Below the pieces are notes generated by a model. It saw only the letters and a list, made by a program, of their open reading frames with translations. It was not told the origin of the DNA and did no database searches. A stretch of DNA of 63,149 nt. It comes from Oligoflexia bacterium. GTDB taxonomy: Bacteria; Bdellovibrionota; UBA1018. The position numbers and the translations under genes are program-made. The DNA lies in NCBI GenBank assembly GCA_014376785.1, contig JACMQW010000100.1, positions 1-63,149 of the forward strand, given 5' to 3'. This document shows, piece after piece, positions 17,557 to 25,019 of the stretch. Within the stretch, counting starts at the first letter, position 1, and each line of letters begins with the position of its first letter.

Positions 17557-19062
17557 TTACTCAATGAAGTCACGGGCAACGATGCCGTATTTTTCGAGTT
17601 TCCGGAGCAACGTTTTTTTCGGGATGTTTGCGTGGAGTGCGGTTTGATTAATGCGCCCACCGAATGCTTTTAGAGCCGAGAGCAAGAAGCGTTTCTCGAA
17701 CTCCTCCTTATTCGCCTGGAAGTCGAGCTTCGAAAAATCGAGTTTGAATGCTGAAGCATCCGCACCTTCCAGGGCTAAGTTCAGGGGAATCGTCCCGTTC
17801 TGAACAGAAGCCCGGATATCCATTTCATCCTCTGCCTCAGACGCCTTCGATCCCGCCTGGATGACGGCACCGAGCAGGAGTCCTTTCGACCGAGCCGAAA
17901 CCAGAACGGTTTCCGGCAGGGAGTCTGGGGTAATCTCCGTCGTGTTTTCGATCACGAATGCGTGTTCGATCACGTTTTCGAGTTCCCGAATATTTCCAGG
18001 CCATTGGTGGGCCATCATGGCTTCCATCGCATCCGCAGAGATGCCGGTGATTTCTTTTCGATGCTGCTGGTTAAACTTATCGACGAAGTACTTCGCTAGA
18101 TGGCCGATGTCGCTTTTTCGGTCGCGAAGCGGCGGGAGTTGGATCGGAAGAACATTCAAACGGTAGAAAAGATCTTCGCGGAATTCATTCTTTTTGATCA
18201 TCTCTTCGAGGTTTCGGTTCGTCGCCGCGATGATCCGCACGTTCACTTCGATCTCCCGGTTCGAACCGATCGGGGTGAACTTCTTTTCCTGGAGCGCGCG
18301 CAGGAGTTTTACCTGCATGCCCATCGAAATGTCGCCCATTTCATCGAGAAATAAGGTGCCACCATCGGCGTACTGGAATTTTCCGATTTTTCGACCGTCT
18401 GCCCCAGTAAATGCGCCTTTTTCATGTCCGAAAAATTCGGACTCAATCAGTGCCTCCGGGATCGCGGAACAGTTAATGGTCACGAAGCGGTTATCTTTCC
18501 GGGGCGAATTATGGTGAAGAGCAGAAGCAACGAGTTCCTTGCCGGTTCCGCTCTCTCCCCGAATCAGTACCGCGGTTTCTACTCGGGAGAGCTTATCGAT
18601 GATGGAGAAAACTTTTTTCATCTCCACGCTTTGGCCGACGAACTCAGTGCCACCCGGCATTTTGATGATCGGAGAGGAAAGAGCAATGTCTTTCACCATC
18701 TTGTTCGCCTTAAGCGCTTTTTCGACCATGTAGACGAGGTTGTCGGCCTTCACAGGCTTCTCTAAGTAGTTGTAGGCGCCTTCCTTCGTGGCTTCGACCG
18801 CATCGCGAATATTCGCGAAAGCAGTTAAAATCAGCACAATGATCGAAGCATCATGCGATTTGATCTCTTTCAAAGCTTCTAGGCCCGACAGTTTCGGCAT
18901 GTTTACATCAAGGAGCACTAAATCGTATTTGCCTGCACGTACTCTGTTTACGGCCTCTTCCCCATCCGCCGCTTGGTCGACGAGGAAATGGTTCTCGGAA
19001 AGAGCAGAGGCAACGGTCAAGCGAAGATCAGAATCATCATCGACTACGAGTACGCGGTACAT
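17557..19062 (-). CDS. NtrC-family sigma-54-dependent response regulator
   Basis: A 501-residue activator with three domains. The receiver (about 1-118) has Asp8-10, phospho-acceptor Asp52, Thr80 and Lys102. The AAA+ domain (about 140-380) has Walker A GESGTGKE at 169-176, the sigma-54 contact loop GAFTGA at 216-221 and Walker B GGTLFLDE near 234-241. A Fis-type helix-turn-helix occupies the last 45 residues (INQTALHANIPKKTLLRKL). All catalytic residues are intact, so phosphorylation should enable activation of sigma-54 promoters. The start overlaps the kinase gene end by 26 bases, making the kinase the likely partner. Target genes are unknown. Confidence 0.95.
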   Translation of the reverse strand: MYRVLVVDDDSDLRLTVASALSENHFLVDQAADGEEAVNRVRAGKYDLVLLDVNMPKLSGLEALKEIKSHDASIIVLILTAFANIRDAVEATKEGAYNYLEKPVKADNLVYMVEKALKANKMVKDIALSSPIIKMPGGTEFVGQSVEMKKVFSIIDKLSRVETAVLIRGESGTGKELVASALHHNSPRKDNRFVTINCSAIPEALIESEFFGHEKGAFTGADGRKIGKFQYADGGTLFLDEMGDISMGMQVKLLRALQEKKFTPIGSNREIEVNVRIIAATNRNLEEMIKKNEFREDLFYRLNVLPIQLPPLRDRKSDIGHLAKYFVDKFNQQHRKEITGISADAMEAMMAHQWPGNIRELENVIEHAFVIENTTEITPDSLPETVLVSARSKGLLLGAVIQAGSKASEAEDEMDIRASVQNGTIPLNLALEGADASAFKLDFSKLDFQANKEEFEKRFLLSALKAFGGRINQTALHANIPKKTLLRKLEKYGIVARDFIE

Positions 19063-21037
19063 GGGCTTCTCCTTTAGAGGCAGGTGACTGGGTCTTGAGT
19101 CCGGGCTTGATCACATCCTCGGCCTTAAGGGCGACCGGGAGGATGATCTTGAAAAGGCTTCCGACATTTTGCTCACTGACGACCTCGACGCGGCCGAGAT
19201 GCGCTTCCACGAAAAACTTCGTGAGGTAGAGTCCGAGCCCGCTGCCCGCGGTCTTCGTCGTTTGGTCGTTTTGCGCTCGGTAAAACCGCGTGAACAGATT
19301 TTTCAGTTCCTCTGGAGAGAGGCCGATCCCCTCGTCTTTAACCGAGATTTCAACGGTATCGCCGAGGTCCACTGTTTGAATCAGGATCTCCGAACCGGCG
19401 GGGCTGTATTTGATCGCATTGTCGATGATGTTCGTCAGGACTTTCGCAATCAACGAAACATCGATTCGAATGGGAAAAAGGGGTTCAAGATTCATTCGAA
19501 TTTTCACCCCAGACGAGCGCGACTGCGCGTCGAAACGTTCAACTACTCGTTCGAGAACCTGGTTCACATCTTTCGATTCAAGGTTCAATGTCGTTTGGCT
19601 TGATTCAACTTTCGTGAGCTCGAGCACGGACGAAATGAAATGATTCAGTTCGTCCGTCGAATTCATGATGTGCTGAAGATTTTCTTTCTCCAAGCTATCC
19701 AACCGCGATGACGATTTCCGTAGAACCATTTCGGCCAAGCCTTGAATTCGGGCCACCGGGGTTTTCAAATCGTGAGTCACCAGTCGCAGAAAGTTCGTTT
19801 TCAACTCCTCCACCTGCATCAGAATTTCGTTCTTTTGTTGATAGTCCCATCGCCGTTTGTATTCCTGAATCAGTCGATAGGGAACAGCGAGGTAATAAGA
19901 GAGAAAGATGCCCACTAAAGGCTGGGCTTCCCGAATCCACAGTGCACGAACCGAAAAAAGAATCTGACCTACGACTAAAAATCCGGAGGCCAGAAGGAGG
20001 GTATTAAAAACGCCGTAGAGGGGAGTGTAAGTAAAAACGGACCAAATCACGAAACCGACCAGTAGAAACGTGGTCAGCCAATTTAACCAGTCGGGCGATC
20101 GCACAATGCCGTCATTTCCTAGCACGGCTTCCAGAATGTTTGCATGAACGATGAGTTTCGGATTTGCGAAAGCTCGTTTTGAATAGGGAGTGAATGCGTA
20201 ATCTTCCGAATCGGTGCGACTAACCGAACCGACTAGTACGTTTTTGCCTTCGAGTTCCCGCCGCGCCACTCGTCCTTCTAGGACGTCAATCATCGAAAAT
20301 GTTTTGTAATCGGATTTTGTGCCGGCTTTCGGGCCGTAACCCGTGGGCCCTTGGTAATTAAAAAAGAAATAGGAGGCTTCAATCGCGGGATCGGTGAATT
20401 GGCCGCGAATTCCATTTTCACTCCGATGTCCGTTCAGGCGGTGGGCAAGCTCCAGATGGAACGAAGGCTTTCCGTAAAGGGTGAGCAGGGCGCGCCGAGT
20501 GATCTTATCTTCGCCAAAAACATTCCCGTCTTTGTGGATGACTGAAACCGCGTGAGGAACGGCAGAAAGAGGAAAGGGAGGAATGACTTCGCCATTAATA
20601 TCGAAAGGGGTGCCGAGTAGGAACGGCACTCCCTGCATTTCAAGCCGGGAAGCAACTCCCACAAATCGGCTCCCTAATTCGCCACTGATTTGCTCGGGAT
20701 AGGCTTGCGCCACGCGGTTCATATCGACGAGGTAACCAATCGAGCGCGGCCTCATTTTCTCTACCATTTCGAGAAGTCGGACATGAGGATCCAGAGGTAG
20801 TGGCGAAACTTCATCGAGTTTCGTGAGGGTATGGTCATCGATTGCGATGAGAACGATGTTCGAATGGGATTCGTGGTTTCTTCGCATCCTCATTCGGAGG
20901 TCGTAGAGCGAGGACTCGATCCAATTAAATTCGAGATTCATCAAAAATGCGGTGAGCAAGGCTGCGCCAGTCGCGATGACGATCGCTCGTTCATTCTTTT
21001 CGAAACCGGATTTAAGGGAAAGCCAGCCGAGCTTCAT
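19037..21037 (-). CDS. CHASE2-domain sensor histidine kinase
   Basis: A 666-residue membrane kinase. One N-terminal membrane segment (about 18-34) leads into an extracytoplasmic CHASE2 domain (about 40-310; IVLIAIDDHTL and DVLEGRVARRELEGKNVLVG are typical). Three closely packed membrane segments follow (about 320-387). The cytoplasmic part has a HisKA domain with the phosphorylated His422 in THDLKTPVARIQG and a HATPase domain with the N box NIIDNAIKYSP, G1 DEGIGLSPEEL and G2 GSGLGLYLTKF. The ligand of the CHASE2 domain is unknown. It sits in one operon with the NtrC-type regulator. Confidence 0.94.
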   Translation of the reverse strand: MKLGWLSLKSGFEKNERAIVIATGAALLTAFLMNLEFNWIESSLYDLRMRMRRNHESHSNIVLIAIDDHTLTKLDEVSPLPLDPHVRLLEMVEKMRPRSIGYLVDMNRVAQAYPEQISGELGSRFVGVASRLEMQGVPFLLGTPFDINGEVIPPFPLSAVPHAVSVIHKDGNVFGEDKITRRALLTLYGKPSFHLELAHRLNGHRSENGIRGQFTDPAIEASYFFFNYQGPTGYGPKAGTKSDYKTFSMIDVLEGRVARRELEGKNVLVGSVSRTDSEDYAFTPYSKRAFANPKLIVHANILEAVLGNDGIVRSPDWLNWLTTFLLVGFVIWSVFTYTPLYGVFNTLLLASGFLVVGQILFSVRALWIREAQPLVGIFLSYYLAVPYRLIQEYKRRWDYQQKNEILMQVEELKTNFLRLVTHDLKTPVARIQGLAEMVLRKSSSRLDSLEKENLQHIMNSTDELNHFISSVLELTKVESSQTTLNLESKDVNQVLERVVERFDAQSRSSGVKIRMNLEPLFPIRIDVSLIAKVLTNIIDNAIKYSPAGSEILIQTVDLGDTVEISVKDEGIGLSPEELKNLFTRFYRAQNDQTTKTAGSGLGLYLTKFFVEAHLGRVEVVSEQNVGSLFKIILPVALKAEDVIKPGLKTQSPASKGEAHVPRTRSR

Positions 21038-21217: not shown

Positions 21218-22627
21218 ATGAGTCTTGCCGAACCTATTTTGAATGTCTCTTTCTACCGCTTCGTGACCTTGAGAGATCTCGAACGGAAAAAAGAGTCGAT
21301 TAAATCGCGAGCCAAAGAGGCTGGCATTAAAGGTTCGATTTTACTGAGTGAAGAGGGAATCAACGGATTTCTTGCCGCCGAAGAATCGATTCTTCGCGTT
21401 TACCTCGATTGGCTTTTTTCAGAGTACGGCGAGTTCAATGGGATGGCGCCGAAAGAATCCTTTTCTTCAAAGATCCCGTTTGCGCGAATGATTGTGAAAA
21501 TAAAAGACGAGATCATCGCAATGGGTCGTCCAACCATTCGCCCGGAGGAAAAAACCGGAAAAGTAATTGACGCACGTACTTTGAAAAATTGGTTCGATGA
21601 GAAAAAAGAATTCGTGATGCTGGACACCCGAAACGACTACGAAATTTCGGAAGGAACATTTAAAAACGCCGTCCATTACGACATCGAGACATTTAAGGAA
21701 TTTCCAGCCGCGCTCGAAAAAAATGCGGGCAACCTGGCGGATAAAACAGTGGTCATGTTTTGTACGGGGGGGATTCGTTGTGAAAAAGCGACGGCCCTCG
21801 CCATGGATCTGGGGATTCAGGATGTCTACCAACTTGATGGCGGAATTTTAAAGTATTTCGAAGAAGTGGGTAGCGCGCATTATCGCGGCGACTGCTTTGT
21901 TTTTGATGGAAGAGAAAATGTGAATGCGGGGCTTGAATCGAGGTCTGACCATTCACTTCGTTTGAAGTCTGAAGGACTTCGATTGGTTCACGGAGATGAC
22001 GTCGAGAGTAATCAGGTGGTGTATGCACTCCGTGCAAAGGGTCTGCGTTTCGAGTCCGTGCAGATCGACTCTTCTCATCTCCCTCCCGAAATCGCGAAGG
22101 CTAATCCCCACGGCAAGTTGCCCATTCTAGAAAACCGAGATCTTGTCCTTTACCAACCTGGAATCATTCTGGATTACCTCGATGAAAATTTTCCTGAGAA
22201 AAAATCCCTCACTCCGCTATCACCCGAGCGCCGTTCTCGAATGAGGATTTGGATGGACTGGGTAGAGCATTTCTTCGGCATGAATGTGAAAAAATGGTGT
22301 ACCGAGCGAGACGCGCTCGGAAAGGCTGAATATCGCGAGCTGGAAATTCGTCTCGAAAAGGACCTCTACCGAATGAAAACTCCGCTGCAAAGGTCGCGAA
22401 AATTTTTCGTGATTGATGAACCGACCCAAGCGGATATCGCGGCATTTTCAGTTTTAGAAAAGTTACGTTTGACGGGATTTCCGAGCGACTTTCCCGAAAG
22501 GTTCGATCTCGTGTGGGCCTGGTATGACCGAATGGCAGCGATTTCGAAGGCTAAATCGACGTCCGGCTTTGCGTCTCCGGAAAGTGGGATTCGCAACTCG
22601 AACCTTTCGGCTCAAAATCGCGCATAA
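21218..22627 (+). CDS. TrhO-like rhodanese (UPF0176) fused to a glutathione-transferase-like region
   Basis: A 469-residue protein with AAGGAG just upstream of ATG 21218. Residues 8-105 form the acylphosphatase-like UPF0176 domain (KGSILLSEEGINGFLA). Residues 115-225 form a rhodanese domain with the active loop FCTGGIRCEK (Cys182 and Cys188) shared with TrhO, the tRNA uridine-34 hydroxylase that makes ho5U. After HYRGDCFVFDGR, where TrhO proteins usually carry a cysteine-rich zinc motif, this protein continues with a thioredoxin-fold GST-N-like domain (about 254-330; NPHGKLPILE and LDYLDENFP) and a helical GST-C-like region to about 450. The 3' end overlaps the opposite-strand penicillin-binding-protein gene by 77 bases. 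The TrhO assignment is strong; the role of the added region is unknown. Confidence 0.88.
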   Translation: MSLAEPILNVSFYRFVTLRDLERKKESIKSRAKEAGIKGSILLSEEGINGFLAAEESILRVYLDWLFSEYGEFNGMAPKESFSSKIPFARMIVKIKDEIIAMGRPTIRPEEKTGKVIDARTLKNWFDEKKEFVMLDTRNDYEISEGTFKNAVHYDIETFKEFPAALEKNAGNLADKTVVMFCTGGIRCEKATALAMDLGIQDVYQLDGGILKYFEEVGSAHYRGDCFVFDGRENVNAGLESRSDHSLRLKSEGLRLVHGDDVESNQVVYALRAKGLRFESVQIDSSHLPPEIAKANPHGKLPILENRDLVLYQPGIILDYLDENFPEKKSLTPLSPERRSRMRIWMDWVEHFFGMNVKKWCTERDALGKAEYRELEIRLEKDLYRMKTPLQRSRKFFVIDEPTQADIAAFSVLEKLRLTGFPSDFPERFDLVWAWYDRMAAISKAKSTSGFASPESGIRNSNLSAQNRA

Positions 22628-25019
22628 CCCATTCCTCGGACTCTTGGTCGCTAGAGCAAAAGAGTTGGGCCCCTTTGCCCGTATAGCGATCAATCTTAAC
22701 CTGCTTGAGGTGTTCACTTTCCGGAAATGGAGCCGTGGGGAAATCTTCTAGCGCCCGTTTCATGAAGTCTGCCCAGATCGGAAGTGCGCCATTGGCTCCG
22801 GTAAGCTGAAGGGGCTTCTTCTTCTTCTTAGCCTTCGGATCGAGCGCGTCCGTTTTTTTCTCGGTGAGGCTTGCGTTCTGGTCAGCGCCTACCCATACGA
22901 CGGTAGTCAGGTCCGGAGTAAAGCCTGCAAACCAAGCATCGCGGTAATTCGAAGTGGTGCCGGTTTTCCCGGCGGCTGGGCGAGTGAAGCCGTAAGCGGG
23001 ACCCGCTGCAGCTGCACTTCCTTCGGTGAAAACGCTCTTCATCGTTTCGATCAAGAGATCGATCGGTGCTGGCGGAAAAACCTGTTTTGCATTGAAAACA
23101 AATTTTGCGAAGAGGGTGCCATCGTCTTGGGTGATGGCGCGAATCGCAGTCAACTCATCTTGCACCCCGTGATTAGCGATCGTCGAGTAAGCCGTTACGA
23201 GTTCCACAGGAGAGAGTTCGGAAACCCCGAGTGAAAGCGAAGGAACATTCGGAAGATCGGACTGCACTCCCAACGCGCGCGCGGTTTCGATGATCGCGGG
23301 AATTCCGACTTGAACGCCGAGTTTAGCGGCGACGGTGTTGATGGATTTCGCAAGCGCGAGCCGAAGCGGGATCCAGCCTAAAAAACCTTTTTCGTAATTA
23401 TGGGGAGACCATTTCTGTCGGTCGTGATCGAAGGAGAGTGTCCACGGCGCATCCTCGACGGGATACCCAGTCGAATAGGCGAGTCCACTCGGATCATTCC
23501 CTTGCAGGAAAGCAGTCAAGTAAACAAACGGCTTGAAAGTAGATCCCACCTGCCGCTTCATGTTTAAAATGCGGTTGAAAGTGCTATCGCCGTAATTTCG
23601 ACCACCCACCAGGGCTCGGATGTAACCGGTCTTATGATCGACGACGGCGAGCGCTCCTTCGATTCGTTCTTCAGGATTTTCTGCGGAATTTAAATTCAGT
23701 TTCTTTTCAAGTACGGCCACTCCGCGCGCGACGGAGTCTTGGGCGGTTTCTGCGATCTCCGGATTCAATGTGGTGTAGACCCGGAATCCGGCCGCTGCGA
23801 TATCGGTTTCCGAAATGCGATCTTTCAATTGGCGGATCATTTCGGCTTTAACGAAATCAGTGAAGTAGGGGGCCTTATTTGCAGCACTGACGGGAGGGCG
23901 AAAGCGGAGGGGGAGTTTTGCGGCTTGCTTGGCTTCGTCTTCTGCAATGAAACCCGCTTCGACCATTTTTCGAAGCACGAGGTGTTGGCGTTCCACTGCG
24001 CGTTCTCGGTAACGGTAAGGGGAGTAGAACCCAGGCCCACGGATGAGACCTGCCATCAGAGCCACTTCCCCTAGGTGAAGCTCGCTTAAATCTTTTCCGT
24101 AGAACAGCCTCGCACCCTCGGCGACGCCATGGATTTCGTACGATCCCACTTGGCCTAAATAGACCTCGTTCAGGTACCTCTCGAGGATGGCTTCCTTCGA
24201 AGTTTTCATTTCTAAGAGGAGGGACAGAAAAAGTTCGTTGAATTTTAGCGCGATATTCCTCGTCCTGCGCGCCATGAGATTTTTTACGAGCTGCGCAGTG
24301 ATCGTCGATCCACCTTGGGCGAGTTTTGCGCTACGAATATTTACCCAAAATGCGCGCGCAATTCCGCGAGGATCTAATCCGGCATGTTCTAAGTAGCGAG
24401 GGTCTTCGATCGAAATAATGGCCTGCCAAATGGGAGCTGGAATGTCTTCGAATTTTTTTAGCCGTCTAATCTCCCGTTTGCTTTCGGGATCTGACCGAGA
24501 AAGCGTCGCGATCACTTCCGGTTCTAAATAAAGGGAAGGAATTTCATCGAATGTTCCGTCCCTTTCTCGTTCGATTTTAGAAAGGGAATTTTTCTTTTCA
24601 CCCCCGAAAGTAAATCGAATATTTTTTCCGGCCAGTTCACGCGTTGGATCTTCGGGCGGCAGTAAAACATCGACCGGATAATCAAACGGATGCAGCGTGA
24701 TCTTCAGTGTTTCAGAGTCAGGCGTCGTTGGGGAGTATCCGAGAGCTTTCAGGCGCTTCAGAAGTTTTGCGCGGCTCATAGGGGGAACGATGCGTTCAAC
24801 ATCTGAAAACAACCGTGTTGGAACAAATTCATTTTCGTGACTGAAGGCAGTTTCTAGTTGTTTGTAACCTGCGCGGAGCGTGAAAGCGAAAATGAGAAGG
24901 AGAATGAATGCGAATGCGAACACGCTCCATCCGAATAGGCGGCGGTTGCTTCGCAGGAATTCTCGAAATTTTCTCCACGCTTCTCGGAGTGGAGTTACTG
25001 CAGTGCGTTCAAATTCCAT
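22551..25019 (-). CDS. mrcB: Class A penicillin-binding protein (PBP1b-like)
   Basis: A bifunctional peptidoglycan synthase of 822 residues: a cytoplasmic tail, one membrane segment (about 31-48), a UB2H-like domain (about 65-150), a GT51 glycosyltransferase and a transpeptidase. The GT51 catalytic motif is EDPRYLEHAG with Glu205, where Tyr replaces the usual Phe, followed by QGGSTITAQLVKN. The transpeptidase has Ser493 and Lys496 in GSTFKP, the SIN triad and KTGTT. The UB2H-like region suggests a PBP1b that could respond to an outer-membrane lipoprotein activator. A Lys-rich loop (KAKKKKKP) interrupts the end of the transpeptidase domain. It converges on the TrhO-like gene with a 77-base overlap. 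Confidence 0.93.
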   Translation of the reverse strand: MEFERTAVTPLREAWRKFREFLRSNRRLFGWSVFAFAFILLLIFAFTLRAGYKQLETAFSHENEFVPTRLFSDVERIVPPMSRAKLLKRLKALGYSPTTPDSETLKITLHPFDYPVDVLLPPEDPTRELAGKNIRFTFGGEKKNSLSKIERERDGTFDEIPSLYLEPEVIATLSRSDPESKREIRRLKKFEDIPAPIWQAIISIEDPRYLEHAGLDPRGIARAFWVNIRSAKLAQGGSTITAQLVKNLMARRTRNIALKFNELFLSLLLEMKTSKEAILERYLNEVYLGQVGSYEIHGVAEGARLFYGKDLSELHLGEVALMAGLIRGPGFYSPYRYRERAVERQHLVLRKMVEAGFIAEDEAKQAAKLPLRFRPPVSAANKAPYFTDFVKAEMIRQLKDRISETDIAAAGFRVYTTLNPEIAETAQDSVARGVAVLEKKLNLNSAENPEERIEGALAVVDHKTGYIRALVGGRNYGDSTFNRILNMKRQVGSTFKPFVYLTAFLQGNDPSGLAYSTGYPVEDAPWTLSFDHDRQKWSPHNYEKGFLGWIPLRLALAKSINTVAAKLGVQVGIPAIIETARALGVQSDLPNVPSLSLGVSELSPVELVTAYSTIANHGVQDELTAIRAITQDDGTLFAKFVFNAKQVFPPAPIDLLIETMKSVFTEGSAAAAGPAYGFTRPAAGKTGTTSNYRDAWFAGFTPDLTTVVWVGADQNASLTEKKTDALDPKAKKKKKPLQLTGANGALPIWADFMKRALEDFPTAPFPESEHLKQVKIDRYTGKGAQLFCSSDQESEEWVMRDFEPKGSSCESHFPETQSRTSI

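Follow-up and report, generated by a model that had tools for sequence, protein, structure and literature searches.

A TrhO-type tRNA hydroxylase fused to a glutathione-transferase-like module in Bdellovibrionota, with a parallel case in Pseudomonadota

The fused gene and its two parts

The window analyzed here is a 63,149-nt stretch of DNA from an Oligoflexia bacterium of the phylum Bdellovibrionota (genome G000; GenBank assembly accession number GCA_014376785.1, contig JACMQW010000100.1, positions 1 to 63,149). Positions 21218-22627 of its plus strand form one open frame of 469 codons with no internal stop, in which a short-form TrhO (residues 1-247) is followed by a complete glutathione transferase (GST) fold (residues 252-446). 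The locus contains the following features, the names of the three neighboring genes being based on our own reading of the sequence.

17557-19062: NtrC-like regulator, neighbor of the CHASE2 kinase gene
19037-21037, minus strand: CHASE2-type sensor histidine kinase, a divergent neighbor conserved in the tblastn synteny
21218-22627, plus strand: fused TrhO-GST ORF, 469 aa plus stop, with orthologous single ORFs at loci L003, L004, and L005
21239-21514, plus strand: UPF0176_N (acylphosphatase-like) domain, residues 8-99 (Pfam PF17773, match 9-99, 4.4e-22)
21551-21913, plus strand: rhodanese domain, residues 112-232 (Pfam PF00581, match 120-214, 3.4e-11)
21761-21763, plus strand: codon of the predicted catalytic Cys182, the first Cys of CTGGIRC (residues 182-188)
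21914-21970, plus strand: junction/linker, residues 233-251, the point at which the Cys-rich tail starts in long TrhO
21971-22192, plus strand: N-terminal thioredoxin-like half of the GST, residues 252-325, with NPHGKLPIL and the cis-Pro P302 (GST_N_3, model, VIA Z 21)
21998-22000, plus strand: Asp261, aligned with the GST active-site Cys (Cys269 in RRCPFA of the G022 fusion)
22154-22159, plus strand: Gln313-Pro314, aligned with the glutathione-binding Glu-Ser (E321-S322 of G022)
22220-22555, plus strand: C-terminal all-helical half of the GST, residues 335-446, with a core (369-440) that is better conserved in the sister species
22551-25019, minus strand: penicillin-binding protein (PBP), converging with the fused gene, whose 3' end it overlaps; part of the conserved synteny

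The domain make-up is supported by several lines of evidence. UPF0176_N and rhodanese follow each other in this order, and GST_N_3 (residues 264-328, 8.5e-10) and GST_C_2 (391-438, 5e-7) were recovered in the HMM check of the C-terminal region that an earlier note on this DNA had suggested; all four Pfam matches exceed their gathering scores. In sequence searches of the PDB, residues 5-239 matched 4f67 (Lpg2838; 3e-54), and residues 270-417 matched the SspA structure 6v91 (3e-16) as well as tau and omega GSTs. The AlphaFold model of the protein (mean pLDDT 86.8, pTM 0.66) was calculated from an alignment without the GST-only rows, which MAFFT had set against the TrhO part. In VIA-align comparisons of this model, residues 1-247 scored Z 30.6 against 4f67 and 29.8 against 9j5o, the Bacillus subtilis TrhO with tRNA-Ala, and residues 252-446 reached Z 21.1 to SspA 3lyk and about 20 to many GSTs, including those of the tau class. 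The thioredoxin-like N domain and helical C domain of the GST fold superfamily are found by both Pfam and the model, which gives a complete and confident GST fold in the C-terminal region. The identification of the gene in the earlier note as TrhO with an SspA-like GST module is hence correct, with Pfam, PDB matches, and the AlphaFold model in agreement.

Judged by its sequence, the first part of the protein is a member of the TrhO family of O2-dependent tRNA U34 hydroxylases. The NCBIfam TrhO model NF001133 scored 236 bits against a cutoff of 170, and the top NCBIfam model, the PRK05320 sulfurtransferase subfamily (NF003703), reached 300 bits but stayed under its cutoff of 331. In the CxGGxR loop, C182, T183, G185, and R187 are invariant in 16 aligned homologues; the corresponding C, T, second G, and R are essential in Escherichia coli TrhO (PMC6599085). 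K94 and K96 are located where the E. coli enzyme has K112 and R114, the latter being replaced by Lys, an equivalence that was judged by eye from VKIKDE versus MKVRDR. TrhO requires its rhodanese-loop Cys and O2 (PMC6599085), and according to Sakai et al. (2019) the mechanism of the hydroxylation is still to be clarified (PMC6599085). The fused copy is the single TrhO of G000, and none of TrhP, CmoA, and CmoB was recognizable in this 97% complete genome, so that TrhO would be the sole known route to ho5U34 in this bacterium. The enzyme is patchily distributed within family f1, as several relatives in it (e.g., G004, G005, G014, and G027) lack any TrhO match.

One fusion at a conserved locus

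Three genera carry the fusion, always at the same conserved locus. It forms a single ORF in G001, which belongs to the same genus as the window, and in G025 and G022; in G031 only an assembly gap with two N bases interrupts it, and the locus of G002 ends at a contig end ahead of the GST. G001, G025, and G022 constitute the list of further carriers that had been called for, with G031 to be counted subject to its N gap. The order NtrC, CHASE2 kinase, TrhO(-GST), PBP, porin was recovered by tblastn of the neighboring genes at six of six fused or truncated loci (G000, G001, G002, G022, G025, and G031), as far as contigs and fetched stretches extend. In the TrhO tree, the sequences of the fused clade group on one side of a branch with an SH-aLRT value of 84. 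The shared locus order together with the TrhO grouping makes a fusion in the common ancestor, followed by vertical inheritance, the best account, and the fusion in the window's clade is thus probably a single ancestral event. The pair of the CHASE2-like kinase and the NtrC-type regulator (17557-21037) is itself conserved and divergent from the fused gene across the loci of the clade.

The possibility that an assembly error or a frameshift unites two genes, which the earlier note had named as a way to overturn its claim, was rejected. MAG contigs can in general hold errors, but junction and synteny are identical in independent assemblies of three genera, the frame is unbroken in each of four genomes (the window's, G001, G025, and G022), and the probability of an artefact is accordingly close to nil. 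Base composition likewise shows no break at the junction, with GC3 at 0.48-0.55 for the domains and at 0.36 for the linker of 25 codons.

Among the matches listed for 368 surveyed genomes of the phylum, there were no further TrhO-GST fusions, and no description of a TrhO-GST or UPF0176-GST fusion was found in the open-access PMC literature. With the chimeric TrhO, a known enzyme family gains a new domain architecture, and a second phylum provides a parallel (see below).

A different TrhO fusion was encountered in family f22 of the same phylum (L098, L100-L105, and L107; genomes G334, G337-G342, and G344), where ORFs of some 600-630 aa combine a tailed TrhO with an RluA-type pseudouridine synthase as their C-terminal part (PF00849, 5e-34 in L100), so that two RNA modification enzymes are fused. 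Proteins of the same length with the Cys tail occur in Povalibacter (L195) and Pirellula (L196) and group with those of f22 in the TrhO tree.

Origin of the GST module and loss of its active site

The best explanation for the second part of the protein is that it derives from a cysteine-type GST, which other Bdellovibrionota encode as a separate protein. Such free GSTs from G028, G032, G023, and G026 have lengths of about 205-215 residues and are 50-56% identical to the module of G022, and remoter ones, e.g., those of G012, G284, G338, and G343, show 43-49% identity; the free Bdellovibrionota GSTs carry the cysteine-type active site RRCPFA[IM]RVR. Within the phylum, only G023 has a free GST gene beside trhO, in divergent orientation and with overlapping 5' ends of the ORFs, and elsewhere the free GST is unlinked. 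A probable S-adenosylhomocysteine hydrolase gene (L020, 2841-3677) is located beside this divergent pair of G023, following gst (L113). A near copy of the free GST alongside the fused one was not found in G000, G001, G022, or G025.

The fusions differ in the preservation of the active site. That of G022 retains the whole site of a catalytic cysteine-type GST, with C269 in RRCPFA, V-P310, and E321-S322. In the window, the alignment places Asp261 at the position of the Cys and Gln313-Pro314 at that of Glu-Ser, and P302 is kept; compared with free cysteine-type GSTs (omega/tau-like, glutaredoxin-2-like) of Bdellovibrionota and Pseudomonadota, this copy thus lacks both the CPxA Cys and the Glu-Ser pair. 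G025 has lost Cys and Glu-Ser as well, about 16 residues of the GST N half including the NPHGKLP stretch are missing from G001, and the Pfam GST scores drop from G022 to G025 and G001. Given Asp261 and Gln313-Pro314, the module of the window is probably non-catalytic with respect to glutathione. It is very unlikely that it is a still-active enzyme which binds glutathione without the Cys and senses or uses thiol status: the cis-Pro and the glutathione transferase fold are indeed retained, but Cys has become Asp, Glu-Ser has become Gln-Pro, and in the sister species the half in which glutathione would be bound is incomplete.

Constraint on the two halves was compared between the congeners G000 and G001 by the ratio of first- and second-position to third-position codon differences, which was used in place of dN/dS because third positions look near saturation. 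Being derived from two sequences, the values are indicative only: 0.41 for TrhO, 0.49 (95% interval 0.35-0.66) for the GST C core (residues 369-440), 0.59 for the complete C half, and 0.73 (0.57-0.92) for the N half. The glutathione-binding half would therefore appear to be under little constraint, and the helical core would still be constrained, as far as two sequences can indicate. It is conceivable, if on balance doubtful, that the module is what is left of an old fusion, decaying and devoid of present function, with its fold kept only for the solubility of the chimera. Such a decay would suit the absence of Cys and Glu-Ser from the window and G025, the deletion in G001, the near-neutral N half, and the falling HMM scores, whereas in every fused genome a frame of some 200 codons has remained open, the C core is 58% identical between the congeners with a ratio near that of TrhO, and the predicted fold is complete and confident. 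Taken together, the module of the window is best seen as a still-constrained scaffold or a slowly decaying remnant.

TrhO-GST association in Pseudomonadota and the possible role of the module

TrhO and cysteine-type GSTs have also come together in Pseudomonadota, where the GST type was present in 122 of 398 sampled genomes. Among 80 genomes with this GST type and a listed TrhO, the two genes are adjacent in 17 (14 on the same strand, 3 divergent) and form one ORF in 2; these numbers are a hand count from two lists in which related genomes are included, so that they do not represent independent events, and chance adjacency would by our own estimate have a probability of the order of 0.1% in any one genome. 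The family of G772 includes 12 genomes with both genes (E <= 1e-60), with 8 adjacent and 3 fused cases, and one family accordingly holds neighboring genes and the fusion side by side. A trhO gene directly followed by gst is found, e.g., at the loci L058, L060, and L061 of marine Rhodospirillaceae MAGs, and at most of the same-strand junctions the end of one gene and the beginning of the next share 4-8 nt. Novosphingobium sp. RL4, for instance, has a 4-nt overlap on plasmid NZ_CP141945.1. At L177 (G603) and L178 (G458), about 390 nt separate trhO and gst, in contrast to the overlaps elsewhere. No GST gene adjoins trhO of E. coli.

The TrhO-linked GSTs of Pseudomonadota carry RRCPYAMRAR or a near variant, and the fusions of G772, G608, and G961 combine an intact RRCPYA motif with the Cys-rich tail. 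A single subfamily for the GSTs of both phyla had been considered, since they have RRCP[YF]A, DLDxYKY, and PFxRQ motifs in common, and was rejected, as the GST tree, a quick tree with long branches, places the Pseudomonadota and Bdellovibrionota proteins in different subfamilies. TrhO would thus have been joined separately to two kinds of cysteine-GST.

These fusions also bear on the Cys-rich zinc segment, for which the earlier note had suggested that the GST part may be a substitute. The absence of the segment is real: the window protein has no PF12368 (Rhodanese_C) match and no CxxC...CxxC motif, and its only Cys residues are 182, 188, 226, and 361. Among 86 distinct TrhOs surveyed, 59 have the CxxC...CxxC tail, and it is missing from all fusions of the window's clade, though unfused TrhOs of the same family often lack it too. 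Those of G003, G018, G023, G026, G028, G047, and G049 have neither tail nor attached GST, so that the absence is not peculiar to the fusion. Since tail-less relatives manage without a GST and the Pseudomonadota fusions possess tail and GST together, the GST is not a replacement for the tail, and substitution was discarded as a general rule on the basis of this survey. The same two observations speak against the idea that the module is an extra tRNA- or ribosome-binding surface in place of the missing tail, which we consider unlikely. The substrate of TrhO is tRNA, the module of the window is slightly basic (pI 8.0) next to an acidic TrhO part (pI 5.2), and aminoacyl-tRNA synthetase complexes use GST-like domains for their assembly (e.g., PMC3930741 and PMC8216282), but with a module pI of 5.1 in G001 this basicity is not conserved.

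With respect to the function of GSTs linked to TrhO, we infer a role as thiol partner or scaffold. The fusion would have captured a cysteine-GST that acted as the thiol partner of TrhO and would have lost this chemistry in the window's lineage, with a structural or partner-binding scaffold remaining, a combination for which we see an even chance. A TrhO-linked cysteine-GST may use glutathione to reduce the rhodanese-loop Cys from a sulfenate or mixed disulfide, which would let O2-dependent hydroxylation turn over. In the window's genus, the module would have been deprived of its thiol chemistry and retained chiefly through the helical half, serving without catalysis as a scaffold in dimerization or in the binding of a partner or tRNA, much like SspA or the GST-like domains found in aminoacyl-tRNA synthetases. 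A more specific version, with the chances somewhat against it, is proposed tentatively: cysteine-GSTs might be dedicated glutathione-dependent reductases of TrhO after hydroxylation or after the formation of stress disulfides, fused to it at least twice and reduced to a structural role by loss of the chemistry in the window's lineage.

Several observations favor a thiol link. TrhO-GST operons and fusions recur; TrhO of Staphylococcus aureus (UPF0176 protein SAR2771) is CoAlated on the Cys of CTGGIR and on other cysteines (PMC5989533); and the in vitro assay, in which TrhO in excess introduced ho5U into 75% of the tRNA, contained 10 mM 2-mercaptoethanol (PMC6599085). On the other hand, in most genomes with TrhO no GST lies next to it, E. 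coli TrhO is active in vitro without a GST (PMC6599085), and the adjacency counts partly mirror shared descent. The link between modification and thiol status proposed in the earlier note is therefore plausible for the wider TrhO-GST association, given the recurrent operons and fusions and the CoAlation in S. aureus. It cannot hold for the window protein itself, since the GST Cys is gone there and in G025 and part of the N half is missing from G001, a pattern with which decay is also compatible.

Among the testable readings for TrhO as a family, the thiol-partner role is the most interesting. A rhodanese-fold enzyme that has no known cofactor and hydroxylates uridine with O2 needs a source of reducing equivalents, and the operons and the two fusions suggest glutathione via GST. 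In the window's lineage, the partner is attached and yet devoid of the chemistry, which provides a natural test of catalytic versus structural roles.

In comparison with known systems, the window protein shares the UPF0176_N and rhodanese core with CTGGIRC, the basic residues on the proposed tRNA-binding strand, and structural Z scores of about 30 (9j5o and 4f67) with E. coli TrhO/YceA, B. subtilis TrhO (9j5o), and Lpg2838 (4f67); it differs from E. coli-type TrhO in the lack of the Cys-rich tail and in the GST fold of some 200 residues added at its C terminus. The Pseudomonadota fusions (G772, G608, and G961) have the same order of TrhO and GST in one ORF, but they consist of a long TrhO with Cys tail, an Ala/Pro-rich linker, and a GST of another subfamily with intact Cys, and thus represent a convergent case. 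SspA is a GST fold put to a use other than GST chemistry, and it is the best PDB sequence match of the GST part, with a structural Z of 21.1. The SspA model PRK09481 scored only 58.7 bits against an equivalog cutoff of 314, and the GST part of the window protein is fused to TrhO; SspA itself is named in PDB titles as a factor associated with RNA polymerase. In aminoacyl-tRNA synthetases, GST-like domains are likewise GST folds added to a tRNA enzyme, where they serve assembly (e.g., PMC3930741 and PMC8216282); they are eukaryotic and belong to other enzymes, and the analogy is one of function only.
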